This document shows, one piece after another, positions 4,232-45,282 of a stretch of DNA of 64,000 nucleotides (positions are counted from its first letter, which is position 1; each line of letters begins with the position of its first letter). This DNA comes from Bacteroides luhongzhouii (GTDB lineage: Bacteria > Bacteroidota > Bacteroidia > Bacteroidales > Bacteroidaceae): contig NZ_CP059973.1 in assembly GCF_009193295.2 (NCBI RefSeq), forward strand, positions 3,348,001 to 3,412,000, written 5' to 3'. Made by a program: the position numbers and the translations under genes. The notes below the pieces were generated by a model, which saw only the letters and a program-made list of their open reading frames with translations, made no database searches and was not told the DNA's origin.

Positions 4232-4316
4232 GGAGAGGTGGCAGAGTGGTCGATTGCGGCGGTCTTGAAAACCGTTGTACTGCGAGGTACCCGGGGTTCG
4301 AATCCCTGTCTCTCCG
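4232..4316 (+). tRNA. tRNA-Ser (UGA)
   Basis: 85 bases folding as a class II tRNA with the long variable arm of tRNA-Ser. The acceptor arm GGAGAGG pairs with TCTCTCC (one G-T pair) before discriminator G. The anticodon loop CTTGAAA holds TGA, reading UCA and related Ser codons. The T arm contains GGTTCGAATCC. No CCA is encoded. Confidence 0.96.
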
Positions 4317-4394
4317 CTAGGATAGCAGCTTTTAAGCTGCTATTTCTTTTGTGGAAAATATATTTCCATTGTCTGTTTCTTTATTGGAAAATAA

Positions 4395-4482
4395 GGAGAG
4401 GTGCTCGAGTGGTTGAAGAGGCACGCCTGGAAAGCGTGTATACCCCTAAAGGGTATCACGAGTTCGAATCTCGTTCTCTCCG
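4395..4482 (+). tRNA. tRNA-Ser (GGA)
   Basis: 88 bases, class II. The acceptor arm is GGAGAGG, the anticodon stem CACGC/GCGTG has loop CTGGAAA with anticodon GGA, and the variable arm is a hairpin (TACCC/GGGTA). The T loop is GTTCGAATC. It lies 78 bases after tRNA-Ser(UGA), probably in the same transcript. No CCA is encoded; a run of seven T follows directly and may help terminate. Confidence 0.96.
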
Positions 4483-4506
4483 CTTTTTTTGTTTAGAAAA
4501 TGTTTG

Positions 4507-9232: not shown

Positions 9233-9790
9233 ATGATGTATGTAATGCGGAATGGTTGCAGGCTAGGGGTTGTGCTATCATTTCTGTTATTATCTTGCGG
9301 TGTACATGTACATGCGCAACGTGTAGCTGTCAAAACAAATGCATTGGGATGGCTGACAGCTAGTCCGAATATCGAAGCGGAGTTTATTTTGGGTCGCCAT
9401 GTCTCCTTAAATATGGGAGTAGCTGGGAATCCGATCAGTACAGACAATTTTAAAACGACTTTCACGCATTTTCAGCCGGAAGTACGTTATTGGCTAAATC
9501 GTCCGATGGTGAGCCATTTTCTTGGTGTCACCGCTTTCGTGAATAATTTTAATATGATGGTAAAGGATGTGTATCACAAAGGAGATGCATATGCTGCCGG
9601 TTTGACCTATGGATATGCATGGGTTCTCGGAGAGCATTGGAACATCGAGGCAACAGCCGGAATAGGTGTGATGCGTTACCGTCAGTTTAAGTATGATAAG
9701 GGTACTCCAAAACCGGAAGTAGTCAATGATAGCAAGACTACTATTGCGCCTGTTAAACTGGGAGTGTCCTTTGTTTATATTATCCGATGA
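9233..9790 (+). CDS. DUF3575 family outer-membrane beta-barrel-like protein
   Basis: 185 residues. It has a signal peptide (hydrophobic VVLSFLLLSCGVHVHA, cleavage before QRV), followed by a DUF3575-type sequence starting VAVKTNALGWLTASPNIEAEF, with alternating hydrophobic strands and a final YI-R end typical of a small 8-stranded barrel. Related proteins in Bacteroides often sit in Mfa-like fimbrial or envelope operons; no fimbrillin gene is in reach here. Three in-frame ATGs occur at the start (9233, 9236, 9245); the first is used. It leads a three-gene operon with short gaps (31 and 3 bases). Function unknown beyond probable outer-membrane location. Confidence 0.75.
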   Translation: MMYVMRNGCRLGVVLSFLLLSCGVHVHAQRVAVKTNALGWLTASPNIEAEFILGRHVSLNMGVAGNPISTDNFKTTFTHFQPEVRYWLNRPMVSHFLGVTAFVNNFNMMVKDVYHKGDAYAAGLTYGYAWVLGEHWNIEATAGIGVMRYRQFKYDKGTPKPEVVNDSKTTIAPVKLGVSFVYIIR

Positions 9791-9821: not shown

Positions 9822-11876
9822 ATGAAAGTCAATTTAAAACGTGATAGATTAATGGGAATACTTGGCATGGTGATGCTGGTATCTTGCATGAGTGTATCTG
9901 CGCAACGTATCCGCGTACAGGGACACATCACCAATCCGCAAGGCAAAAGTGTCCCGAATGTGAATGTATTGAATCCTGCAAATGATGAACGCATAGAAAT
10001 GTCCGACGAAGATGGCCGATACAGTGTATTGGTTGAGAAAAACGGTTCATTGAAGTTTACGTGTGTCGGTTATGAGGATAAGACGGTGAAAGTGGATGGA
10101 AAACAGATTCTCAATGTCGTATTGAGAGATGCTGTGATCGAATTGGATGAAGTAACGATTACTTCCAAGATAAAGGATAAAGTGGTTCCCGAACCTACGG
10201 ACATTGAAATCAAAGGAAACTATTTCCATCTGAAAACCCGTGTCCCGGTGCCGAAGGAAATGTTTAATTCGCATCGCCGCCTGGTATTGCAACCTTCCAT
10301 TTATGATGTGACATTAAAGAGACGACTGTTGATGCGTCCTGTGGTTTTCGACGGAGGCACGTACAATACAACACAACGCCGGATGTACGATTATGAGATA
10401 GAAAAAGATCCTTTGCATGAATATATTCAGGTAAAAACAACTTCTTCCCGCAAAGGAGACATCATAGCTTACCATGATTCGATTTATATAGAGTATCTGC
10501 AACATGATTACCGGGCGGATGTGCATCTTGCCATGGAGAATTATCGGAATATAATTTATCGTGATTCTTTCTCCATTGCACGGGGAACAGTCAATCCGCT
10601 ACGTTTCTTGGAATATAAATTTTCCGCTTTCAATCTGACGGATGAGAAATACCTTCCGAAACCAGTGATGCAGTTGAGGGACACTAAAGGAGAAGTGAAT
10701 CTGACATTCGTTGTAGGTAAAGCCAATCTGGATGATAAAAATCCACGGAATCAAGTGGAGCTGAATCGTTTGAATCAGGAATTGCGTAGCATTGAAACGA
10801 ATCCGGATGCTTCTTTAAAGAGCTTCCATATAACGGGCGTTGCTTCACCGGACGGCTCTTATGAGTCGAATTTAAAACTGGCCAAGTTACGTACAGATAA
10901 AGCATTGGAACGTATCTTGTCGCAATTAGATCCCGGAACACGTAAACTTTTGGAAGTAAAATCTGATGCATCGGTTGCTTCCTGGAAAGAAGTGGTGCAG
11001 TTGCTGAAAAAAGATTCAAAACAAGATTTGGCCAAAAGTGTGGAAGAGTTAATCAAACAATATGAGGCTACTCCGTACCGATTGAATCATGCGTTGAAAA
11101 CGAAACCTTTCTATAAAGAGATAGCCGAAATGTATCTGCCCAAATTAAGAAAAGTGCAATACACATACGGATATTCCATTTTCCGTTCTCTGACGGACGA
11201 GGAAATCAGACAACTCTATAAGAAGAATCCGCAAGAACTGACCCGGTTTGAGTTTTACCGTATGATTGCAACTGCAAAGGATCTGAATGAAAAAGAGAAA
11301 TATTGCAGAGAAGCACTTGAAATCTATGATAACTTTACGTATGCAGCCAATGAACTGGCGGTAGCAACTATACAGAAAGAGGCACCGGATTCGAGAATTC
11401 TTGAACCTTTCGTCAGCAAGTCAGCACCTTCCGAATTATTATCTAACCAAGCCATAGCTTTGCTGCACGAAGGAAAATATACGAAAGCCGATTCCATATT
11501 GACTTTAGTTCCGGAAGAGACTGTATCTGGCGACTTATTAGCTATTGTTCAGGCAATGGCCGGCTATTATAATGATGCTTTTGAAAAAGTGGCGGCTACC
11601 AGTCCTTTCAACGAAATAGTAATGTTGCTGGCAATGAAGAAGAATCAGGAAGCCTGGGATAAAATCTCGGCAATGGAGGTGAAGACAGCCCGCGAATATT
11701 ATATAAAAGCGATTGCTGCCAATCGTATGGAGAAAGTGGGTGATGCTATTATGAGTATTGAGAAAGCTTTGGAGCTTGATCCTTCCTTATTGGAGACTGC
11801 GAGAGTTGATGGTGACATTATTGACTTGTTGCCCGAAGAGCAAAAAATAAAGAATGATAATACAACGAAAGAGTAA
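9822..11876 (+). CDS. envelope protein: carboxypeptidase-regulatory, OmpA-like and helical repeats
   Basis: 684 residues with a signal peptide ending at MSVSAQ. Residues ~30-105 form a CarboxypepD_reg-like beta sandwich (VQGHITNPQGKSVPNVNV through VNVVLRD-type end). Near residues 337-366 there is an OmpA-like peptidoglycan-binding signature (GVASPDGSYESNLKLAKLR) with the conserved D, N and R. The last ~250 residues are helical and TPR-like (repeated AEMYLPK, YCREALEIYDNF, SIEKALELDPS units). This suggests a periplasmic protein that anchors to peptidoglycan and organises a complex, perhaps with the two barrel proteins on either side. The exact role is not known. Domain calls are from pattern recognition, not a search. 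Confidence 0.7.
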   Translation: MKVNLKRDRLMGILGMVMLVSCMSVSAQRIRVQGHITNPQGKSVPNVNVLNPANDERIEMSDEDGRYSVLVEKNGSLKFTCVGYEDKTVKVDGKQILNVVLRDAVIELDEVTITSKIKDKVVPEPTDIEIKGNYFHLKTRVPVPKEMFNSHRRLVLQPSIYDVTLKRRLLMRPVVFDGGTYNTTQRRMYDYEIEKDPLHEYIQVKTTSSRKGDIIAYHDSIYIEYLQHDYRADVHLAMENYRNIIYRDSFSIARGTVNPLRFLEYKFSAFNLTDEKYLPKPVMQLRDTKGEVNLTFVVGKANLDDKNPRNQVELNRLNQELRSIETNPDASLKSFHITGVASPDGSYESNLKLAKLRTDKALERILSQLDPGTRKLLEVKSDASVASWKEVVQLLKKDSKQDLAKSVEELIKQYEATPYRLNHALKTKPFYKEIAEMYLPKLRKVQYTYGYSIFRSLTDEEIRQLYKKNPQELTRFEFYRMIATAKDLNEKEKYCREALEIYDNFTYAANELAVATIQKEAPDSRILEPFVSKSAPSELLSNQAIALLHEGKYTKADSILTLVPEETVSGDLLAIVQAMAGYYNDAFEKVAATSPFNEIVMLLAMKKNQEAWDKISAMEVKTAREYYIKAIAANRMEKVGDAIMSIEKALELDPSLLETARVDGDIIDLLPEEQKIKNDNTTKE

Positions 11877-11879
11877 ACG

Positions 11880-14246
11880 ATGAATATCCTCAAAATCAAA
11901 AATAAATATGTGGCGGTGGTATCATTCATGATGCTTGCTGTCACCTTGCAGGCACAAGATTACGGTGCATTGAAGTATATGTTGCAAAAGAGACCTGCCT
12001 ATGAGAAATTTGAAAGCAACAAATTCAATGAACATCTTTTTTTCTCTGCCGGAATAGGGCCATATAGCTTGTTGACAAGCGGAAGCAGTCAGGATGGACC
12101 GGGAATGATGGCTCATCTTTTTATGGGAAAATGGATCACTCCCGTTCATGGCCTTCGGTTGGGTGTGAATATGGGGTATTTACCGTCAAAGATATATACT
12201 TCTAAGATAAAGATAGGCGGAGGTAGCTTGGATTATATGTTGAATATGTCTTCTCTTGCATTTGGTTATGATGAACACCGGCGTTTTGAATTGTTGGGTA
12301 TCGCAGGGATAGAGGCTGGTTATTCGAAGGTCAATGATAATAGTGAACGTGCCGGTAATTATCCGGGGCTGAAAGGGGGGAGCGATCTTTACTACGGTGC
12401 TCATTTCGGTTTACAGGGAAATGTGCGTCTTGCTCCTACATTGGATTTATTTATAGAGCCGCGGATCGGATGGTATAATGACGGTTTCGCGCATACGGAA
12501 AGTTGGAGAAACTATAAGATGGGAGGTTCGGTTCTGGTAGGTCTCACCTATATGCCTGCTGCTCCGATGGGTACTAAGGTTCATTTTGACGATTTCGATA
12601 ACAGTTCGTTCCTGAATCATATGTTCATCTCTTTATCCGGTGGTATCAGTACGTTGAAGGTTCCGGGAATTAAGAATACGGTTAAGGGATTGGGACCCCA
12701 GTTCTCTGCCGGAATCGGTAAATGGTTCAGTCGCTCTTCCGGTTTACGTTTGTCCGGGACGGTGGGGCTTTGTGATACTCCTTCCGGCAGTGAGAGCGGC
12801 TACTTCAAACATGTAGATTTACATGCAGACTATATGTTGAATATCAATAACATTCTTTGGGGATATGACGAGGACAGGTTATTTACTTTGATGGGTATTG
12901 CCGGTGTGAATTTGTCAGGAACAAAAGGAGTTGAAAAAACAGCCAAGTACGCTCCGGGTGTAGGAGTAGGTGTACAAGGAAGTTTCCGTCTCAATCGTTC
13001 TGTTGATTTGTTTGTAGAACCTCGTCTCAACGTTTATCATAAGAGATATGCAGGCGGCTGTGGAGTCGGTGGAAATACAGATCAACTTGGAGAATTGAAT
13101 GTTGGGTTGACTTACCATACCATTGATCGTGCTGCCCGTCCGAAGAACCAATTTTCAAGTAACCATATAGGAGATAATGTATTTATGACTTCGGGAATCG
13201 GTATGCAACTGTTCTTGAATAAAACCAATCTTGAGAAAGTTAGTTCATGGGGACCGCAAGTCTCTGCTTCCATAGGTAAATGGTTTAGTCCTTATTCCGG
13301 TCTGCGTCTGGTAGGTACGGGAGGCTTTTTTACCAATTATGTAGTTCCTGGCAATGTGGAAGGCGGCAAGCTTAGACATGTCAGTGTCAGTGGAGGTCTT
13401 GACTATCTGTGGAATGTGACTTCCGCCATGAGCGGATACAATCCCGACCGTATCTTTGAATTAATCGGTTTGGTGGGTGTCAACCTTGCTTATACTTCCA
13501 AATCAGATCACCAATTCCAACCGGGTGTTAACGCAGGCATACAGGGGCTATGGCACGTGAATGATTTTCTAGGTCTGTATATTGAGCCACAGGTTCGACT
13601 GTATGGAGATAAATTCATCGAAGGCAATTTGGGCTTTATGCAGAAAGATGTAATGGTGGCTATCAATGCCGGATTGCATTATCGTTTTGTTCCTTATTCA
13701 AAAGTAGCCAATCGTAGTGAATTTAGTAAGGATGACAAACGTTACTTCGTCTCCGGAGCATTGGGCGTAGGCAGTCTGTTAGTAGCTAATAAAGAACTGA
13801 TTAAGAATATGGGGGTAGAAGCTAAAGGGAGTATTGGTAAATGGTACACTCCGTTATCTGCATGGCGGGTAAACGGAACGATTATGTACAAAGCAAAAAC
13901 ACCATCAAAAATGAATCTCCATTATGCCGGTTTAGGTATGGATTATATGATGAGCCTGGCTACCCTCGCAAAAGGGTATAGTCCCGATCATGTGATAGAT
14001 GTTGTTCCTTTTGTGGGAGTTACCGCTGGTTTGGTACGTCGTAAAGGAGAATTCAAAGCGGTGCCGGGACTGGATGCCGGTGTACAGTTTAAATTAAGAG
14101 TAGCATCTTCTTTGTATCTGTATGCCGAACCTAAAGTCGGTATCCGTACAGATACTTATGACGGGATCAAACAAGGCAGACCTGATCGTGTCGCATCTAT
14201 GATGGGAGGATTTTTATACCGGTTTAAGATGCCTACTTTCGAATAA
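11880..14246 (+). CDS. four-repeat outer-membrane beta-barrel-like protein
   Basis: 788 residues with a signal peptide (MMLAVTLQAQ). After it come four copies of the same ~170-190 residue unit at about 50-225, 245-412, 432-602 and 620-782. Each has, in order, an FxSxGxG-like opening, a GKW[IFY][ST]xxSGLRLxG block (residues 84, 280, 466, 654), a DYMLN-like block (118, 317, 508, 688), a GYDEDRxFELxGxxGVN block (129, 328, 519, 699) and an xLYxEPxxxxYxD block (190, 377, 567, 746). Each unit is the size of an 8-stranded barrel of the DUF3575/OmpX kind. It starts 3 bases after the previous stop. I know no described family with four such units in one chain; function unknown. Confidence 0.7.
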   Translation: MNILKIKNKYVAVVSFMMLAVTLQAQDYGALKYMLQKRPAYEKFESNKFNEHLFFSAGIGPYSLLTSGSSQDGPGMMAHLFMGKWITPVHGLRLGVNMGYLPSKIYTSKIKIGGGSLDYMLNMSSLAFGYDEHRRFELLGIAGIEAGYSKVNDNSERAGNYPGLKGGSDLYYGAHFGLQGNVRLAPTLDLFIEPRIGWYNDGFAHTESWRNYKMGGSVLVGLTYMPAAPMGTKVHFDDFDNSSFLNHMFISLSGGISTLKVPGIKNTVKGLGPQFSAGIGKWFSRSSGLRLSGTVGLCDTPSGSESGYFKHVDLHADYMLNINNILWGYDEDRLFTLMGIAGVNLSGTKGVEKTAKYAPGVGVGVQGSFRLNRSVDLFVEPRLNVYHKRYAGGCGVGGNTDQLGELNVGLTYHTIDRAARPKNQFSSNHIGDNVFMTSGIGMQLFLNKTNLEKVSSWGPQVSASIGKWFSPYSGLRLVGTGGFFTNYVVPGNVEGGKLRHVSVSGGLDYLWNVTSAMSGYNPDRIFELIGLVGVNLAYTSKSDHQFQPGVNAGIQGLWHVNDFLGLYIEPQVRLYGDKFIEGNLGFMQKDVMVAINAGLHYRFVPYSKVANRSEFSKDDKRYFVSGALGVGSLLVANKELIKNMGVEAKGSIGKWYTPLSAWRVNGTIMYKAKTPSKMNLHYAGLGMDYMMSLATLAKGYSPDHVIDVVPFVGVTAGLVRRKGEFKAVPGLDAGVQFKLRVASSLYLYAEPKVGIRTDTYDGIKQGRPDRVASMMGGFLYRFKMPTFE

Positions 14247-14561: not shown

Positions 14562-14936
14562 ATGAAAGTATTAGTTTTTATTTCATTGGTTGGAAGTTTG
14601 TTGTTGGCTTCTTGTGGAGGTAGTAGTTCGAAAGGGAACGCAAATACTCAAGAAGTGAATCCGGCAGATACAATTTATTTAGGTGATTTGCGTGAGAAGT
14701 TTGAGGGAGATAGTATTTTCTTTAAAATTGTTGCTCCAGATCTGATGTTGATGGATTATCAGTATTTGTGGGCTGTAACAGAATCGGAAGCGATCGAGAA
14801 AGGCTTGACAAAAGAATACTATAAACGTGTGAAGAAAGAAATCACCGATACGAATGAAGCTATCAAAAGAGGTGTGATGAAAGGGGCGAATGTAAAACGT
14901 ATACCGGATTTCCAAGTATCTCAGGAAAACAAATAA
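14562..14936 (+). CDS. small lipoprotein of unknown function
   Basis: 124 residues. The N-terminus is an SPII signal with lipobox LLASC (Cys ~19) followed by GGSSSKGN, consistent with a surface or outer-membrane lipoprotein. The mature part is hydrophilic and charged with a Tyr-rich middle (MLMDYQYLWAV) and a Lys-rich C-terminal half. I recognise no family. It has its own promoter and a downstream terminator, so it appears to be a monocistronic unit. Strong for being a gene, none for function. Confidence 0.7.
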   Translation: MKVLVFISLVGSLLLASCGGSSSKGNANTQEVNPADTIYLGDLREKFEGDSIFFKIVAPDLMLMDYQYLWAVTESEAIEKGLTKEYYKRVKKEITDTNEAIKRGVMKGANVKRIPDFQVSQENK

Positions 14937-19366: not shown

Positions 19367-19750
19367 CTAAAGCACTAGTTCCTTGAACAGTCTTTCCAAA
19401 GTATTATCCAAATCTTCAGAGAATCCCGGATGGGGACGGGATACCTGAATACAGGAACTTTTTACCGCGGTCAGCCATCGGAAACGATCCGGAATATCCA
19501 TATTGGCAATAACTCCTCCTTCCTTATTTCCCTGGCAAATTTTGTCGAAGACTTTCAGCCCTTCTTTCAGGCAATTAATGTCCAATTCGGAAGAGAACAG
19601 TTTCAGTTTGTTTTCATCTATTGTATAAAGAGATTTGAGATATTTGCGCCGTTTGGAAAACAGTACAATACCTACATTAATAAATTCCTCACGTTCTACT
19701 TTAGGAACGAAACGGATAACTGCGTATTCATATAAGTGCCTTTCTTGCAT
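19367..19750 (-). CDS. DUF3037 family protein
   Basis: 127 residues from MQERHLYEYAVIRFVP; an upstream ATG (19762) would add four residues and overlap the kinase gene more. DUF3037 landmarks are YAVIRFVPKVEREEFINVGIVLFSKR and the C-terminal SSCIQVSRPHPGFSEDL. Biochemical function is unknown. The family is regularly encoded directly after a HipA-like kinase, as here, with overlapping frames, so the two proteins probably work together. Confidence 0.82.
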   Translation of the reverse strand: MQERHLYEYAVIRFVPKVEREEFINVGIVLFSKRRKYLKSLYTIDENKLKLFSSELDINCLKEGLKVFDKICQGNKEGGVIANMDIPDRFRWLTAVKSSCIQVSRPHPGFSEDLDNTLERLFKELVL

Positions 19751-20510
19751 TTTGCGCTTCATTTACAAATATTTCGGAATGCTTGATCCTTTCTTCTAAA
19801 AATTGAATATAAACATCTCTCAAGTCTTGCGGAGTTTCCTGTCCTTCCGTCCAGTTCAACCAGTCATCGGGGATGGCATTGACTATCTCCCGTATCTTTT
19901 CATCGGTAAGTAGTTTCTTGAATGTTGCATCTACTTCTTCCAACTGATCGGCAAATGGCAAAAGTACGTGATCTTTTATTTGTACGAACGGACTAAGTGC
20001 GTGTTTCTGCCAATTCGTCCACGAATGATGGAAATAAAGGGAAGCTCCATGGTCGATTAACCACAATTCTTTATGCCACATCAGCATATTCGTATTCTTG
20101 ATTGTACGGTCTACATTGGTCAATAATGCATCCAGCCATACAATTTGCGAAGCAATTTTACCGTCCACCTTATGCACAACAGGGTCGAACGTCAATGAAC
20201 CGGATAGAAAATGCAAGCCCAGATTTAATCCACGGCTCCATTGCAGTAAATCCTGTATTTCTTCGTCCGCTTCCGTCCGTCCGAATGCCTCATCCAGATT
20301 CAAAAATATAATTTCCGGAACTCTGAATCCCAGTGTACGGGCAATTTCTCCCCCTATCAATTCGGCGATAAGGGCTTTAGTCCCATGTCCTGCTCCTCTG
20401 AATTTTACGACATATTTGAATTCATCATCCGCTTCAGCCAAAGCCGGCAATGATCCTCCTTCCCGCAAGGGAAGAATATATCTTGTTACGTTTGCTGTAC
20501 GTAAATCCAT
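19728..20510 (-). CDS. HipA-family kinase-like protein
   Basis: 260 residues, about 60% of full HipA length, and without the HipA N-terminal subdomain. Kinase-like landmarks: K36 in YVVKFRG as the probable ATP-binding Lys, HGTKALIAELIGGEIA, the catalytic-loop TNVDRTIKNTNML (D134, N139), and DHGASLYF (D153) as the metal-binding DFG equivalent. No HipB-type HTH antitoxin gene adjoins; the partner is DUF3037. It might phosphorylate a protein or tRNA-synthetase-like target as HipA does, but that is inference. An AT-rich near-match (TATCTTTA) of a -7 element lies ~25 bases upstream of the start. Confidence 0.82.
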   Translation of the reverse strand: MDLRTANVTRYILPLREGGSLPALAEADDEFKYVVKFRGAGHGTKALIAELIGGEIARTLGFRVPEIIFLNLDEAFGRTEADEEIQDLLQWSRGLNLGLHFLSGSLTFDPVVHKVDGKIASQIVWLDALLTNVDRTIKNTNMLMWHKELWLIDHGASLYFHHSWTNWQKHALSPFVQIKDHVLLPFADQLEEVDATFKKLLTDEKIREIVNAIPDDWLNWTEGQETPQDLRDVYIQFLEERIKHSEIFVNEAQNARKALI

Positions 20511-37057: not shown

Positions 37058-39502
37058 TTATTCGATGAAGAAAGTAGTGGAAACTGTGTTACCCTCTCCA
37101 TCTACTGCCGTCAGGGAATGTTTGCCGGGAGCGGGTTGCAGGGAAATTTTGTGGAAATCCTGTGTTTGTGTCTGATAAGTGTCGTCAAGATGCCAGAAAA
37201 TAATCGCATTGGGATTGCTATGTGCTAGTTCGACTGTGATAAACCCTTTACTGCCGTCCAATTGTTTGGGCAACTTGATATGGGCGTTCATCGGAGGGTA
37301 GATGAACTGCATGGATTGGAAAGCATCTTCTCCACAACCGGCTTTGAAAGGTGGCAGTGGTTTATATTCCGGATGGTGTTGCTTATAGTACCACTCCCAT
37401 ACGGGTGGCAGGGCAAACCATGATTTCTGAATGGTAGGCTCCGTATTTGCACAGTTTTCATAGATGCGGTGGTTTTCGTCAGCGGATAGTGTGACGAGAT
37501 GGTGGTAAGGACAAGCCTCCGTCCTTAATCCGGCGGGAAGAATTAATACGGTATCAGTTTCTTCACAGAAACGTCCTTTCAGATGACCGGACTGGCGGCA
37601 TATTTCTGCATCAACGAAAACGCCTGTGGGACGCTCGAACCATGGTGAAGAAGGGAGATAGCTGAATATGTCGAATAATACGGGGCCGGCTGTTTGTGCA
37701 CCGACCAATCCGGGCTTTCCTTCTCCGGTTGCATTGCCTACCCATACGCCTACTGCATAACGCGGAGTCACACCCACTGCCCATGCATCACGGAATCCGT
37801 AGCTGGTTCCGGTTTTCCATGCGATGGTCTGCATGGATGGAATTGATTTCCAGTCAATCTCTTCGGGGCGGTTGACTTCTGTTAAGGCGGAGAGGGTGAG
37901 CCAGGCTGCTCCTGCTTTAGCCGAACCAGTCTCTTCCGAACCCTCTTCTATAGAGAGAGGACTGGAGTTACTTTGTTCTCGTTTTTCCTGCTCGTTATGA
38001 TTGCTTTTATGATTACGATTTATTTGCTCTGCATTGCTACTTGTTTGCTCTATGCCTTCTGTTTCCAGCAGTATCTGTGCCCCCTTTCTTTGAGAGACAT
38101 TCGGAGAAACACTGTTGTTGGAAAGGCTCCGTCCCATTTGCGCGTAGGCATTCGTTACATCCCATAATGTTGCTTCTGCACCTCCTAAAATCAGTGACAA
38201 ACCATAATGGGATGCTGCCCGATTGATAGTCTTGAATCCCATCTGTTGCAACAAATGGTGAAACTTGGGTACTCCATATCTTTGTAACATGGTTACAGCC
38301 GGAATATTCAATGAACGTGCAAGGGCTTCGGAAGCGGGGACGGCTCCTTCAAACTGCATACTGAAGTTTTGAGGAGTAAAGCCGTTGATATTAACCGGTA
38401 CATCCGGCAACAGCATTTTCGGCAATAAACTTCCTTCCTGTAACATGGCATTGTAGAGAAAGGGCTTTAAAATACTGCCTGTACTTCTGGGAGCTTGGAT
38501 TATATCTACCTGGCTTCCTCCTTGTTTATGGTCGAAATGTACATTTCCGCAGTATGCTACCACTTGATTGGTGGGAATGTCGATAACTAAAATTGCCAGG
38601 TTGCGGATATCACTTCGATTAAACTCATTGCTCCACCGTTCTGCCAAACTTTCTATGTGGGTTTGTATCCCTCTGTCAATAGTTGAACGGGTATATAGCC
38701 CGTTTCTTTCCTGATAGAAACGACTGACTAGGTGGGGAGCTATTTGAGGAAGCGGGTGTGGCTCGTCGGGTAACGGTTCGCTGACAGCTAATTCGTAGGT
38801 AGACGCATCGATAATCTCTTCTTCAAGAAGTTGCTTTAATAAACGGTCGCGTTTGGAAAGCAGTGTCTTCCGTCCTTTGGATAGATGAATCATGGCAGGG
38901 GCATTGGGCAGGACAGCCAGCATAGCCGATTCCGCCCATGATAAATCTTCGGCAGCATGACCGAAGTAACGCCAGGCAGCAGCATCCAATCCTACAACAT
39001 TTCCTCCGAATGGTGCATGAGAGACATACATGGATAAGATTTCTTCTTTGGAAGCCCGAAATTCCAGACGGGTAGCCCATATCATTTCAACGACTTTCTC
39101 TCCGAGTGTTCTGGGTTTGTTCCGGGCGAGACGGATGGTTTGCATGGTAAGGGTGCTGCCTCCGCTTACGACACGTTTGTTCTTTAAATTTTGGTAGAGC
39201 GCCCTTCCGGTAGCTAACGGATTAACTCCCCAGTGGTGATAAAAATGTTTGTCTTCAAAGGTAATGAGGCATTGCTTGATTTTTTCGGGTGTTGTCTTTC
39301 GGGGAGGAAACCGCCATTGACCGTCCGAGGCGATGCGTGCTCCCAATAATTCTTCATTTCGATCAGTCACAACGGTGGAGTAGGGTACATGAAACAGTTG
39401 CTGGGGAAGGCAAAAGATATACCCTATCATCAAAAGAGCAATGCTTATTGTCATTACTTTCTTAGTGACAGATAATCGTTTGAAGAATTTTATAGGATTC
39501 AT
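37058..39502 (-). CDS. pbpC: penicillin-binding protein 1C
   Basis: 814 residues, bifunctional. N-terminal membrane anchor (~18-33). GT51 glycosyltransferase with catalytic E83 in TFEDKHFYHHWGV and the GGSTLTMQ motif. Transpeptidase with S343xxK346 (STGSILKPF), S397LN399 and K563TGTS567. C-terminal BiPBP_C domain ends FITVEL... VSTTFFIE. Between SLN and KTG, residues ~467-530 form a hydrophilic Asn/Glu/Ser/Gln-rich insert not expected in PBP1C. The alpha-2-macroglobulin gene lies directly upstream on the same strand, the classic partner of pbpC. Located at the inner membrane, active in the periplasm. Confidence 0.95.
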   Translation of the reverse strand: MNPIKFFKRLSVTKKVMTISIALLMIGYIFCLPQQLFHVPYSTVVTDRNEELLGARIASDGQWRFPPRKTTPEKIKQCLITFEDKHFYHHWGVNPLATGRALYQNLKNKRVVSGGSTLTMQTIRLARNKPRTLGEKVVEMIWATRLEFRASKEEILSMYVSHAPFGGNVVGLDAAAWRYFGHAAEDLSWAESAMLAVLPNAPAMIHLSKGRKTLLSKRDRLLKQLLEEEIIDASTYELAVSEPLPDEPHPLPQIAPHLVSRFYQERNGLYTRSTIDRGIQTHIESLAERWSNEFNRSDIRNLAILVIDIPTNQVVAYCGNVHFDHKQGGSQVDIIQAPRSTGSILKPFLYNAMLQEGSLLPKMLLPDVPVNINGFTPQNFSMQFEGAVPASEALARSLNIPAVTMLQRYGVPKFHHLLQQMGFKTINRAASHYGLSLILGGAEATLWDVTNAYAQMGRSLSNNSVSPNVSQRKGAQILLETEGIEQTSSNAEQINRNHKSNHNEQEKREQSNSSPLSIEEGSEETGSAKAGAAWLTLSALTEVNRPEEIDWKSIPSMQTIAWKTGTSYGFRDAWAVGVTPRYAVGVWVGNATGEGKPGLVGAQTAGPVLFDIFSYLPSSPWFERPTGVFVDAEICRQSGHLKGRFCEETDTVLILPAGLRTEACPYHHLVTLSADENHRIYENCANTEPTIQKSWFALPPVWEWYYKQHHPEYKPLPPFKAGCGEDAFQSMQFIYPPMNAHIKLPKQLDGSKGFITVELAHSNPNAIIFWHLDDTYQTQTQDFHKISLQPAPGKHSLTAVDGEGNTVSTTFFIE

Positions 39503-39577
39503 TTAAATATTAAAAGCTAAGAGACATATCTTTGTGACAAATGATTAAGTACGAAATAATAAGGTGCGAAATAATTT

Positions 39578-39646
39578 GGCACGGCTTACACGAATTACGC
39601 GGTTTAAGTGAACGAGTAGAACCGTGAAATCCGTGTAATCCGTGCC
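39578..39646. repeat. imperfect inverted repeat between A2M and pbpC
   Basis: Two 27-base arms (39578-39604 and 39620-39646) pair with about four mismatches around a 15-base loop; each arm holds two copies of a CCGTG/CACGG unit (e.g. TCCGTGTAATCCGTGCC). It begins 6 bases after the A2M stop and has no T-tract, so it is more a dispersed extragenic or mRNA-stabilising element than a terminator. Confidence 0.75.
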
Positions 39647-39651
39647 TAAAA

Positions 39652-42600
39652 TTATCGACTGACAGTGGTTCTTCCTGCTTTGCTTCTTGCCTGTACGTTT
39701 ACATCATACATCGCTTCACATTGAACGGCAGGGAGAATAAAGTTACCTGCATAGGTGGCTTGTAACCTGACAGTGAATACCTTCGTTTCACCACGGCGCA
39801 GATTGAAATAGGTCAACACCCTGTCATCGCGTATATCCTGATAGCTGTACTTGCTGACTGATTTACCGGAGCCGTCGGGTGCTACGTTTTCCGTTTCGGG
39901 AGCAACCATTCTTTCATTGTATATTTCCCAACCGGACGGTATGATATGCGTCAGTGCCAGATTAGTGTAATCGGAAGTACCGCTGATATTGGATATCGAG
40001 GTGATAGCCATAAAATCAGTTCCCTGTATGATGTCATTGACAGAGAGCGGCGTACCGTTCAGGTTGGCATATCTTATATCCATGCGGAGGTTATCGCTGA
40101 TAGCCGGTAACGTATCGTTTAGTAACTGCGTACGTGTGATAAGGTCTACGCTAAGCGCTCCCTTTCCTTGATTCTTCACAGAAACAGTGCCGGATTTTGG
40201 AGTGGTAGCGATCTCTTTTTCAAATACAGCTTTGGCTGATTTTACAGCCGGTTGCTGTTTGTCATTCCATGACCACACAAAATCCAGTGTGCCTGATAAC
40301 TTTTCTGCCAGACGTCCCATTGCCATCAGAGCAAAAGCGGTAGATTGTGTACTGAACCAATCCTCTTGTGACAGATTTTTAGAAACGACTTTCGCTTGTC
40401 GCAAAGCATCCCGTTCCCGGTTCATCAGGATGAGTGTTTCCAAAATCATTGCTTCATCACGGTCGGAAGATCCATAAATCTGATTCATGGAAGAGTAAGG
40501 GTTCACCGTTGTTTCTACATTATACACAAGTTCTTCAGCCGGTTTCATCTTTCCGGTCAGTGCATAGGCGGCTGCCAGTCTCCATTTGGCTTGAATAGAT
40601 AATCCGGTCTGTTCTTTCATTCGGTTCATAGCTCCATATTCCGGTACTCCTGCCAATGCAAGGGTATATAAACGGAAGGCCTGTTGCAATTCCGACTGCC
40701 ATTGCTGCCAGCCACTTGCCTCCTGCGGCATACGCCAGTTTTGTGCGGCAGCACGTTGGAAGCGCTTCCACTTGTTCAGTACGTTCGCATGAACGGCATA
40801 TCCTTTTTCTTGTGCCAGCGTCAGGAACATTCCTGCATAAGAACTGATCCATTCGTCAGCAACAGCATTGCCCGGCCAATATACAAATCCACCGTTGGGG
40901 AGCTGGCGACCATAAATCTGCCGGATGGCTTCCTGTACATTCGTCTTTATCTTTTCGGCTTCCGTCTTATCTATCGTTTTGAATTGAGCGACAAACAGAA
41001 GAGGCAGGGCCTTGGAAGTCAACTGTTCCGTGCAATGATGCTGATAATTGTATAAGAAGTCGAACCGACGGCTGATATCTACCGAAGGTATGCGGGATAC
41101 TTCCAGCTTGATCTGATTGTTTGCAGAAGAACTACTTAGGTTGTATGACAATTCTTTGCTTTGCCCGGCTTCTATCCATTGACTGTTGCGCAGGGTAACT
41201 ATTGGATTCGGATTGCGTACGTCTATTTCAATGGTTTCTTTGGTTTGTTGTCCGCCGCCATTTGCTGTCAGGTGGATCGTAGCCTTTCCGGTTTTGCTGC
41301 CTGTTTTTAAGGTAAAGAAGACAAGCTGGTCTCCCGGTTGGGTGAATTTGAGCGATTGTTGGTTAGCTCCTACAATCTGTACTCCTCCACCGGATGCCTG
41401 AAGGGATACAGTCACATTCTTCACTTGATTCTCCATCGCAAAGATATTGACCGGAACGGTAATTTCTTCCTGAATACTAAGCACGCGGGGCAAAGTAGAC
41501 AACATCATCAATGGAGTCCGTACGAAGGCAGTCTTTTCCGCATTGCCATAAGCACCGTCCTGTCCGGCAACCACCATGGCACGTACCGAACCTACATACA
41601 TCGGAAGTTTCAATGTATGCGTCTGGCTCTTTCCTTTTCCCAGATAGAAAGGGCCTATAAACTTGACTACTGGTTTAAAACGGTTTGCTTTAGCATCGGC
41701 AGGTTTCAACGTAGCGTCTCCCCCTGTGCTGAAAAGCGAACTGTAGCTTCCGGAAGAAGCTCCCAATACATTATCATACATATCCCATGTCCGGATGCCA
41801 AGCGCTTCGCGTGAATAGAAATCATTCCATGGGTCCGGGGTCTTGAAGTTGGTAAGATCCAATAAACCGTCGTCTACAATCGCCAATGTATAAGTCATCG
41901 GTTTACCGCTCTTTTCGCTGACGGTTACGTTGAAGTTGGTTTCCGGGCGTAACACTTCCGGCATCTGTATCTGCGGTTGCAGCACTGTCTTACTGTTAGT
42001 GACAAATACCGGAACAACACCGTACATACGGATAGGCAGGTCGTTGACTGTTTGCGCATGAGGTTGTAACAGACTGATATGCAAATATACGTTCGGAGTC
42101 ATCTCCGGTGTAATCTTGAATGTATACTTCGTATCTCCTCCGTTGGAGACTTCTATCCATTCTTGATGTAGTACAGTCGAACCGTTTTCGATGGATACCA
42201 GTGCACGTCCTCCCGCTGCCGCAGGAATAATGGCTGTGGCTGTCTCTCCAATTTCATAAGAATCTTTGTTCAGAGAGAAAGCAAGCATCTTGATGCCGCT
42301 GGGATCTGTTTTGCTCGAACGTCCGCGCCATTCCGGCCAGTCTACATAAACAGTTCCTCCGGTGGCATGTCCACTCTCTTTGTCTTTCACATAAACCAAA
42401 TATCGTCCCCACGACGGATAATCGACGCGGAACTTGAAGGATGTTTTTCCGCCTCTTGTCTGTAAGTTGCCGCTGGCAACAGGTGTGATGGAACTGTTGT
42501 TGATGTATGTACCAAAAGATTCACCACTGTTCTCCCACCACCAGCTCCAGCCGATGCGGTATATCTTGTATTCCAGATTAGTACGGTTCACTAACTGTCC

Positions 42601-45282
42601 CTGCGTGTTTACAGTCACGATGTCAAATACGTGGTCTTTGTCCGTTTCAATATATTTGCCTTTCGGCTGGTTCAGGTTGATACCGACGTAAGATGTGAAT
42701 GGCGAGAACGGGATTGTTTGAGTGTAGATGCTGGCATCTCCTCCCGGTTCGAATACACGGGTAGTGAATGTTGCATTCAACATACCCGGTGCTTCGGTTG
42801 CGGTCGGAACTTTCAGTGTGACGCTGGCTTTTCCTTCCGCATCCAGTGTACCGTCAAATACATCTGTTTTGATAGTCGTGAAATCCGTAGCCGGATTATT
42901 GAAGATATATTGTCCGTAATTCTTAAACTGTGTATTCACTTTAGATAAAGACATTTCTATTTTAGCTTTCAATCTGGAGGCAGTGGCTCCTGTCAACCAG
43001 GTTGAAGTGAGTGGGGCGTAGACATCTTTGTCCGTAGCTTGAATAACCTTCGGCAATATCAGGTTTATTTTCAAGCGGTTGGGCTTTATGGTTTCGATGC
43101 GCAACCCTTTGTGGAAGGTGGTTCCACCTACCTTAATATATGCATTCCAGAGTCCGGTCGGATCTGTTGCCTGTGTCGGAACGTCGAATGTATAAAATCC
43201 GTTCATTCCTTGCGTTGAAATCATTTTGGTGTAGAACTGTCCTCTCGGATTGTATATTTCCAGTGCTACGGGATGCTTGTCGGGGATTCTCTTTTCGCGG
43301 TCCTCCAATATAAAGGAGATGTGCAGCGTGTCTCCCGGTCGCCATACCCCTCTTTCGCCATATATGAATCCTTTCAATCCCTTTTGAATATCTTTTCCTC
43401 CCACGTCGAATCTACTGACAGACTGTTCTTCACCGTCTACGACACGGACATACGCCTTTTGCTTTTCCGATTCCGCCACGATAATGAAAGGCACGCCCTT
43501 CGGAGTGATTTCAACGAATCCATCTCCATTAGTTTCTCCCTTTCCTATGGGCTGTAACTGGAAGTTATATGCTGTTACTTGTGCTTTCCCTATCGGTTTG
43601 GTGTCCAAAATATTGCTTACGGCAATCCATAGTTTGTTCAGTGAATTCCGTTTTACAATCATTCCCAGGTTGGAAGCAAATACATTACAGGCGGCTATAC
43701 GGTCTGAATTCATATAATAAGATGGATGACAAGGATTGTCGCGTTCTGTCCATCGATATACGCTCCAATCCATTGTTCCTCCGTTGTAATAATAGTAAGC
43801 TTCGGGCGTATTCCAGATGGCTTCATCTTCTTCAGACAAGACACTTCCGCTTACTTTGGTCAGTCCGTCGGATGTGTTACTGCCGGCGAATTTTATATTC
43901 TGATTCTCGCTTCCCCCACAAGGATAAGCGGAGTATTCCTGACGGAATGAAAGTATGACACGGTATATGGCACCCGGCTCCTGATGAATCAACCCGGCAA
44001 GATCTATTGAGTAATCCCCCCAATGATGAATGTCTTTGGAAGCATCTTTGGCAAGCCACAATGTTTTTTTGTAAACCAGTCTTCCCGAGCGGCGTAGTTC
44101 ATTGGCCGAGGCGAGCGAATTGGTTTGCATAAACATCAATACATTATTCTCGAAGACGCGGATCACGCTCAAATCCACAGCATATAGATTGACTGCCCTG
44201 AAAGGAATAATCAGACTTTTCGAATCGGGCAGGATAGCGGCGGAGGTAGACATTTCTACCTGTGGTTTCAGACTTACTTCACTGAACGAAATTGTATGAG
44301 AAGTCCCCAGCGCTTTACCTTGACTGTCTTTGACCCCTTCATGGATATTCAACGTCAGTTTGTTCTGTGTGTTTGCTTCAAAATAGATGAAGACTCTGTT
44401 CTCACTGATTTGGAAGACAGATGAAGAGACTTCCGGAATCTCAATCAGTCCTTTTAAATCCTGGGTAGTGGATAAAGGAGCGGAGAAAACAATCTCAATT
44501 CCGTTTTCCGGTTGTTCAATGCGTTCGGCAGACATAAAACGGAAGCAATCCTTAGCCGGTATCAGCACTTCTTCGCTTTGTTTGCGGTCGATGCCAGCCG
44601 GGTTACCATTGGCTGTAATGGTCAATGGGTAATCATCTGCTTCTCTGGGTATTTGTCTGATGCTAAACTGATACCGGGTAAGGTTGTCTGTCGCGGTGAC
44701 TTCTACCGGATAACTCTTCTTGCCATCGCTGGCAGTCAGCATCTTTTCCACTTCCTTTTTTTTCACTACATCGCTGAAGCGTATTTCTCCTTTAATATTT
44801 ATTTCATCCGGTTGGGTAGCTGTAATTGGTAACGACTCCAACTGCAAAGTGAAGTTACGTTCCTGCACACGGAATGAGAAGTTGAACTCTTTTAGTTTTT
44901 TGTCCACTTCGATGAAGTCTCCAAGCCGGAAAGTTCCTTCGTAGAGCGTTCCCGGTTTCAATGTTCCTTCTTCTGGCACAAACTCAATGGTGTTGTTGCT
45001 TACCCAATATGCTTTTCCTTTTAATGAAGGGGAAAAGCTGAACGGATTGTTTTTTAACTCACTGTTCAGATCCACCATAGGTTGGTCATGAGTCAACTCT
45101 ATGCGTATGGTGGAATTCTGTGAAATAACTCCTCCCGTATACGCATTTACATACGGTGCATAATCGGCAGAAGGAATGATGTCTTTTTGAGTACGTGTGC
45201 ATGAATATAGGCCCACAGTCATCATGATAAGTAGGAGTAGTCCGGTAGCACTAATGCTACGTGTAGTCTTTGTTAGTCCCAT
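39652..45282 (-). CDS. alpha-2-macroglobulin family lipoprotein
   Basis: 1876 residues. SPII signal with lipobox GLYSC (Cys28). The chain is a series of MG-type beta-sandwich domains; the bait and MG2 regions are recognisable by FIYGERGVWRPGDTLHISF, YNPRGQFYTKMIS and DGLLDLTNFKTPDPW (A2M N-domain). The thioester motif CTEQ is intact at C1417 (YQHHCTEQLTSKALPL), followed by the alpha-alpha barrel TED domain and a final MG domain. Such bacterial A2Ms trap attacking proteases on the cell surface or periplasm. The pairing with pbpC fits a damage-response role in which PBP1C repairs peptidoglycan. Own promoter at 45312. Confidence 0.95.
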   Translation of the reverse strand: MGLTKTTRSISATGLLLLIMMTVGLYSCTRTQKDIIPSADYAPYVNAYTGGVISQNSTIRIELTHDQPMVDLNSELKNNPFSFSPSLKGKAYWVSNNTIEFVPEEGTLKPGTLYEGTFRLGDFIEVDKKLKEFNFSFRVQERNFTLQLESLPITATQPDEINIKGEIRFSDVVKKKEVEKMLTASDGKKSYPVEVTATDNLTRYQFSIRQIPREADDYPLTITANGNPAGIDRKQSEEVLIPAKDCFRFMSAERIEQPENGIEIVFSAPLSTTQDLKGLIEIPEVSSSVFQISENRVFIYFEANTQNKLTLNIHEGVKDSQGKALGTSHTISFSEVSLKPQVEMSTSAAILPDSKSLIIPFRAVNLYAVDLSVIRVFENNVLMFMQTNSLASANELRRSGRLVYKKTLWLAKDASKDIHHWGDYSIDLAGLIHQEPGAIYRVILSFRQEYSAYPCGGSENQNIKFAGSNTSDGLTKVSGSVLSEEDEAIWNTPEAYYYYNGGTMDWSVYRWTERDNPCHPSYYMNSDRIAACNVFASNLGMIVKRNSLNKLWIAVSNILDTKPIGKAQVTAYNFQLQPIGKGETNGDGFVEITPKGVPFIIVAESEKQKAYVRVVDGEEQSVSRFDVGGKDIQKGLKGFIYGERGVWRPGDTLHISFILEDREKRIPDKHPVALEIYNPRGQFYTKMISTQGMNGFYTFDVPTQATDPTGLWNAYIKVGGTTFHKGLRIETIKPNRLKINLILPKVIQATDKDVYAPLTSTWLTGATASRLKAKIEMSLSKVNTQFKNYGQYIFNNPATDFTTIKTDVFDGTLDAEGKASVTLKVPTATEAPGMLNATFTTRVFEPGGDASIYTQTIPFSPFTSYVGINLNQPKGKYIETDKDHVFDIVTVNTQGQLVNRTNLEYKIYRIGWSWWWENSGESFGTYINNSSITPVASGNLQTRGGKTSFKFRVDYPSWGRYLVYVKDKESGHATGGTVYVDWPEWRGRSSKTDPSGIKMLAFSLNKDSYEIGETATAIIPAAAGGRALVSIENGSTVLHQEWIEVSNGGDTKYTFKITPEMTPNVYLHISLLQPHAQTVNDLPIRMYGVVPVFVTNSKTVLQPQIQMPEVLRPETNFNVTVSEKSGKPMTYTLAIVDDGLLDLTNFKTPDPWNDFYSREALGIRTWDMYDNVLGASSGSYSSLFSTGGDATLKPADAKANRFKPVVKFIGPFYLGKGKSQTHTLKLPMYVGSVRAMVVAGQDGAYGNAEKTAFVRTPLMMLSTLPRVLSIQEEITVPVNIFAMENQVKNVTVSLQASGGGVQIVGANQQSLKFTQPGDQLVFFTLKTGSKTGKATIHLTANGGGQQTKETIEIDVRNPNPIVTLRNSQWIEAGQSKELSYNLSSSSANNQIKLEVSRIPSVDISRRFDFLYNYQHHCTEQLTSKALPLLFVAQFKTIDKTEAEKIKTNVQEAIRQIYGRQLPNGGFVYWPGNAVADEWISSYAGMFLTLAQEKGYAVHANVLNKWKRFQRAAAQNWRMPQEASGWQQWQSELQQAFRLYTLALAGVPEYGAMNRMKEQTGLSIQAKWRLAAAYALTGKMKPAEELVYNVETTVNPYSSMNQIYGSSDRDEAMILETLILMNRERDALRQAKVVSKNLSQEDWFSTQSTAFALMAMGRLAEKLSGTLDFVWSWNDKQQPAVKSAKAVFEKEIATTPKSGTVSVKNQGKGALSVDLITRTQLLNDTLPAISDNLRMDIRYANLNGTPLSVNDIIQGTDFMAITSISNISGTSDYTNLALTHIIPSGWEIYNERMVAPETENVAPDGSGKSVSKYSYQDIRDDRVLTYFNLRRGETKVFTVRLQATYAGNFILPAVQCEAMYDVNVQARSKAGRTTVSR

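Follow-up and report, generated by a model that had tools for sequence, protein, structure and literature searches.

Multi-barrel outer-membrane proteins are reportedly treated as a class by Solan et al. 2021 (PNAS, doi 10.1073/pnas.2104059118). GfcD/YjbH is described as such a protein, its single chain forming more than one complete barrel (PMC11494523, PMC8592465), and GfcD itself combines a 12-stranded barrel and a 13-stranded one, separated by a periplasmic domain (PMC11494523). Here we analyse a 64,000-nucleotide window of the Bacteroides luhongzhouii genome (assembly GCF_009193295.2, contig NZ_CP059973.1, positions 3,348,001 to 3,412,000, forward strand), in which the gene G3 (11880..14246, + strand) encodes a 788-amino-acid (aa) protein with four tandem OmpA-type barrel units, a predicted multi-barrel outer-membrane protein. 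In the models, the single chain of G3 forms several complete transmembrane barrels, and in this it resembles GfcD. Unlike GfcD, with its two dissimilar barrels, the G3 family is a tandem array of 2–8 homologous 8-stranded units. Multi-barrel proteins as a kind are already known; what is unusual here is that homologous OmpA-type units form an array whose length varies while its fimbria-related partner stays the same. No description of the G3 family was found in the accessible parts of the literature searched, a set that omits most subscription journals.

Tandem units and predicted fold of G3

The original prediction, made from the letters of the window, held that G3 contains four copies of one unit, each with the same five sequence blocks, and that the fourth is the most diverged. 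The four tandem copies are confirmed by a self-comparison and by pairwise alignments checked against shuffle controls; they share 26–33% pairwise identity, copy 4 being the furthest diverged. The unit hidden Markov model (HMM) places unit 1 at 12021..12554 (residues 48–225), unit 2 at 12606..13118 (residues 243–413, position class c2), unit 3 at 13164..13688 (residues 429–603, class c3) and unit 4 at 13728..14225 (residues 617–782, class c4), all on the + strand and each with 8 strands in the model; only six residues follow unit 4 before the chain ends. A likely signal peptide (11880..11954, + strand; residues 1–25, ending at ...TLQA/Q) was read from the sequence and is modelled as a helix at residues 2–26. 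The five blocks correspond to signatures of turns and strands and are partly common to the single-unit relatives.

A chance repeat is ruled out by the shuffle controls. An assembly or frame artefact is likewise rejected, because 22 clusters of relatives (P0002–P0023) are full-length, at 784–791 aa and 75–91% identity, and the ratio of non-synonymous to synonymous substitution rates (dN/dS) is 0.062–0.093 in 5 pairs (a rough estimate, with dS of 1.0–1.9). Relatives of G3 also occur in B. xylanisolvens XB1A and B. acidifaciens DSM 15896, at 81–87% identity. Database searches with G3 gave little: no Pfam family was listed and no PDB sequence matched at expectation values (E) up to 10, and the only NCBIfam match, to PorT/SprT (NF052311), scored 33.1 bits where the cut-off is 125. 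A search for a remnant fifth unit 3′ of G3 found none (best E 0.36). The repeat is real, and the architecture of G3 is well supported by prediction.

Whether the chain forms four small barrels or one large one had been left undecided; four small barrels are by far the better reading of the models, which also bear out the proposed 8-strand size of the units in an outer-membrane-type protein. The full-chain model has 32 strands, 8 per unit. Three units matched small-barrel folds within it and the remaining unit did so when modelled alone, the fold matches including OmpA and OprF. A single barrel of 32 strands would be compatible with one chain holding them all, and Foldseek, ranked by E-value, mostly places large barrels first for the full chain (TonB-dependent receptors, LptD). 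We consider such a barrel very improbable, on several grounds. First, the superpositions are poor, with a root-mean-square deviation (rmsd) of ~29–36 Å for the large barrels and ~17 Å for OmpG; because the rmsd was mostly about 30 Å, these full-chain matches were not used to assign a fold. Second, unit 3 modelled by itself is an 8-strand barrel, and the G3-type unit also occurs singly, in OmpA-family proteins. Third, relatives have 2 to 8 units, so that a one-barrel reading would need 16 to 64 strands. We are therefore highly confident that G3 forms four barrels rather than one.

Conservation was measured over 30 unit rows as the mean share of the commonest residue per position. The conserved parts are the even-numbered turns (0.55 over 85 positions) and the strands (0.52); the linkers are intermediate (0.37), and the odd-numbered loops, of 2–16 residues with one reaching 35, are variable (0.31 over 154 positions). 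Since the start of the chain resembles a signal peptide, we take its N-terminus to be periplasmic, in which case the odd-numbered loops would point outward. An Arg in strand 3, an Asp in strand 4, a Gln in strand 6 and a Glu in strand 7 are each conserved in 77% of rows or more. The OmpA barrel has a sealed core, and by analogy these residues may form a similar sealed core in each unit.

Origin and number of the barrel units

The closest relatives of the unit are the barrels of OmpA-family proteins of Bacteroidales, to which it is homologous over its whole length and with which it shares its signature blocks. Two single-unit relatives in the same genome (L002 and L003; 395 and 379 aa) match with E of 3e-11 and 9e-11, and both carry the C-terminal OmpA-type motif. 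Compared with a barrel profile from 19 single-unit OmpA-family proteins, the unit profile reaches an hhalign probability of 100% (E 3e-40); this set was chosen with the unit HMM, the kinship having been seen independently beforehand in the own-genome search. Whereas these proteins have one unit followed by a C-terminal OmpA domain, G3 has four units and no peptidoglycan-binding domain of this type, as judged from the Pfam scan and from the chain ending after unit 4.

The idea that the operon grew by duplication of a DUF3575-like gene is not supported. The array would then derive from the neighbouring DUF3575 gene, which shares its operon and is of similar size to a unit, and in one relative (L106) a unit and a DUF3575 domain are joined in a single protein. 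By contrast with the 100% obtained for OmpA-family barrels, however, the hhalign probability against the DUF3575 profile is 2.7% (0.3% with the four G3 units alone), and no match to DUF3575 (PF12099) was found on G3 in Pfam at E up to 10. We regard this origin as hardly credible.

The fusion in L106 (L106:7898-9217, G414:C64) is a 439-aa two-barrel protein with a G3-type unit (residues 56–230) followed by a DUF3575 domain (232–430), encoded after the partner gene G2 (described below) and before DUF5119 and Mfa_like_1 genes; it indicates that the two barrel types can combine as modules despite no detected sequence homology. A different combination of the same parts occurs in the B. luhongzhouii genome (L097:5681-7000, about C1:1035680-1036999), where a protein of 439 aa has a C-terminal DUF3575 domain and an OmpA-like match that is weak, under Pfam's cut-off; DUF5119 and Mfa_like_1 genes come next. 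In another Bacteroidales genome, three separate single-unit OmpA-type genes lie adjacent to one another (L114:4808-8469), conceivably the state before fusion.

Unit number varies widely among relatives. A homologue search scored 7996 candidates of 0.55–1.75 times the query length, a range that leaves 2- and 8-unit relatives outside. The resulting set of 116 proteins (115 homologues and G3) contains 57 with four full units, 38 with five, 8 with three, 5 with six and 4 with seven; some of the 3-unit entries come from short contigs and could be fragments. Partial units left another four unclassed (P0027, P0028, P0115 and P0116), P0028 being apparently a fragment of the window's own G3. The 20 fetched cassettes and the window together cover 2 (one), 3 (two), 4 (seven), 5 (eight, one of them split), 6 (two) and 8 units (one), and two additional cassettes, L112 and L113, have 3 units each.

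In a quick tree built from 73 barrels (65 units from 14 of these arrays and 8 OmpA-family outgroups), with 30 of its 70 inner branches starred, 18 open and several long end branches, units group by position across species: class 2 (support 94), class 3 (95, core), class 4 (89) and a class cT (95) that is C-terminal in several relatives and missing from the window's G3. Unit-1 copies form no single supported group. Class scores obtained by leaving out one locus at a time agree with the tree for most units, except for unit 5 of L069, which lies outside the C-terminal class in the tree, and for some units of L080, where scores are unclear or conflict with the tree. Read in this way, the order of classes is 1-2-3-4 in the window, 1-2-3-4-cT in L068, 1-cT in L076, 1-2-cT in L074 and 1-2-cT-2-cT in L082. 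Because the classes keep their position across species in differing combinations, the array seems to be old and to have been altered by gain or loss of whole units or of pairs. The longest array (L080:8325-13088, eight units, 1587 aa) has units 5 and 7 as sisters in the tree (96), while units 2, 4 and 6 cluster together (85). This is a hint that pairs were duplicated, although the class scores put unit 6 elsewhere. Frame-split genes, from decay or assembly error, were seen for both G2 and G3 in L107 and for G3 in L068.

Members of the G3 family contain 2, 3, 4, 5, 6, 7 or 8 copies of a single barrel type and keep the same partner gene, and so offer a natural series for studying how BAM folds several barrels per chain and what effect barrel number has.

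A three-gene cassette with conserved partners

G3 is the third of three genes on the + strand. G1 (9233..9790, 185 aa) encodes a DUF3575 protein (Pfam E 3.4e-51), as had been noted for this operon, and G2 (9822..11876, 684 aa) ends 3 bp 5′ of G3. The three are co-oriented in all 20 fetched loci and in the window; 16 of these 21 show the order G1-G2-G3 and the other 5 the order G2-G3-G1. We surveyed 149 genomes of the genus for G3 (at E 1e-40) and for G2, scoring at most seven candidates per genome, so that more copies are possible. G3 matched in 30, and it is these 30 that also have a G2 match scoring 580 bits or more. Once 10 extra pieces belonging to arrays already counted are set aside, the 47 G3 rows correspond to 37 places. 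Each of the 37 is preceded by a co-oriented G2 match, with 6–297 bp between match ends, and G3 follows G2 in 37 of 41 G2 places. Strict pairing thus holds from G3 to G2 but is incomplete in the other direction. The four G2 places without a G3 array are L106, which has the fusion gene, and L105, L110 and L111, where G2 and G1 close a row of lipoprotein-like genes; Mfa2 was confirmed in L105 only. Weaker G2-type matches (171–443 bits) occur in eight more genomes, in one of which (G348, locus L107) the cassette pieces look decayed or mis-assembled. A lipoprotein-like gene at 14562-14936 had no match among the kept open reading frames of the 20 loci and is therefore not counted as a cassette member.

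G2 opens with a CarboxypepD_reg_2 domain (9915..10160, + strand; residues 32–113), resembling the N-termini of SusC-type proteins in PDB, and has a TPR-like end (3.7e-5, below Pfam's cut-off). Over 384 columns it is homologous to DUF3868 proteins in profile comparison (99.3%, E 1e-20). Compared with the DUF3575–DUF3868 pairs of fimbrial loci, the cassette shares a DUF3575 gene in G1 and this homology in G2. It differs from them in the CarboxypepD_reg-like N-terminus and longer C-terminal part of G2 and in the barrel array added as a third gene. An OmpA-like stretch of G2 (10707..10910, + strand; residues 296–363) matches Pfam at E 0.041, below the cut-off. Its motif reads SP(D/E)G in 14 of 14 G2 sequences, replacing the Asp-containing motif present in 17 of the 19 single-unit OmpA-family proteins (two did not match the pattern); SPEG is also found in 3 of 4 DUF3868 proteins. 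With this replacement of the Asp, a peptidoglycan contact, canonical peptidoglycan binding by G2 is doubtful.

Possible role at the cell surface and other features of the window

The explanation we favour overall, with a confidence slightly above even, combines four sealed barrels, a three-gene cassette and a role as a fimbria accessory. One polypeptide would insert four separate, sealed, 8-stranded OmpA-type β-barrels next to one another in the outer membrane, with linkers of 18–23 residues connecting them on the periplasmic side. G3 would be the membrane part of the cassette, probably serving as a modular platform in the outer membrane and not as a single large pore. The periplasmic G2 would presumably dock where the array exposes its conserved turns to the periplasm. 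Judged by descent, the cassette would belong with the DUF3575–DUF3868 accessory genes of Bacteroidales fimbriae and would most likely anchor, or help to assemble, a surface fibre or fibre base.

Genomic context is consistent with such a role. Elsewhere in the same genome there are four DUF3575–DUF3868 pairs, three of them with an Mfa2 gene less than 5 kb away, and 3 of 20 cassettes (L074, L075 and L082, with 3 or 5 units) directly adjoin Mfa_like_1 fimbrillin genes, 7 of the 9 genes scanned at these loci passing the Mfa_like_1 cut-off.

Several results weigh against this reading. All structure considered for G3 is predicted, and the full-chain model has a pTM (predicted template-modelling score) of 0.52, too low to fix how the barrels are placed relative to one another. 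G2 has no Pfam match to PF12984 (DUF3868), its homology lying elsewhere along the chain, and the roles of DUF3575 and DUF3868 proteins are themselves unproven. No fimbrillin was found among the two scanned neighbours of the window cassette, nor among the few neighbours scanned, unsystematically, at the other 17 fetched cassettes, and two other scanned lipoprotein-like genes of L105 match no Pfam family. At E 1e-5, Mfa_like_1 has no match in four genomes with the cassette (G297, G342, G380 and G439); each of these matches Mfa2 or P_gingi_FimA. Because of the window cassette's neighbours and these four genomes, the fimbria role is a lead and not a result, and we put it somewhat short of even.

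Alternatively, the barrels are real but G3 would serve the envelope in general, as a multi-OmpA staple or scaffold with G2 as its periplasmic part, unrelated to fimbriae. The grouping of the unit with OmpA-family barrels, the weak OmpA-like match of G2 and the missing fimbrillin matches just described would all suit such a scaffold. It fits less well with the Ser-Pro found in every G2 sequence in place of the Asp motif of OmpA-family proteins, with the kinship of G1 and G2 to DUF3575 and DUF3868 proteins, and with the location of 3- and 5-unit forms in fimbrillin loci. We regard it as possible, though appreciably below even.

A more specific form of the fimbria-accessory reading, which we consider unlikely, is a hitherto undescribed outer-membrane machine of Bacteroidales in which a modular array of 2–8 sealed barrels, with a DUF3868-related periplasmic protein as its partner, forms a base plate that anchors or exports a fimbria-type fibre; barrel number would then tune the size of the platform or its set of partners. 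The partners of the cassette also provide a way to test the purpose of DUF3575 and DUF3868 proteins, both rarely named in the literature searched, in gut Bacteroides.

Around the cassette, the divergent genes upstream look, on inspection, like a hydrogenase operon. Rfam at gathering scores reports two tRNAs, both outside the cassette. Two tRNA-Ser genes (tga and gga) stand in a row at 4232-4483. At 19367-20510 (− strand), a HipA-like kinase gene (PF20613) and a DUF3037 gene overlap by 35 bp. Finally, at 37058-45282 (− strand), a gene for a bacterial α-2-macroglobulin (1876 aa) adjoins one for a transglycosylase-transpeptidase penicillin-binding protein, a known gene pairing.
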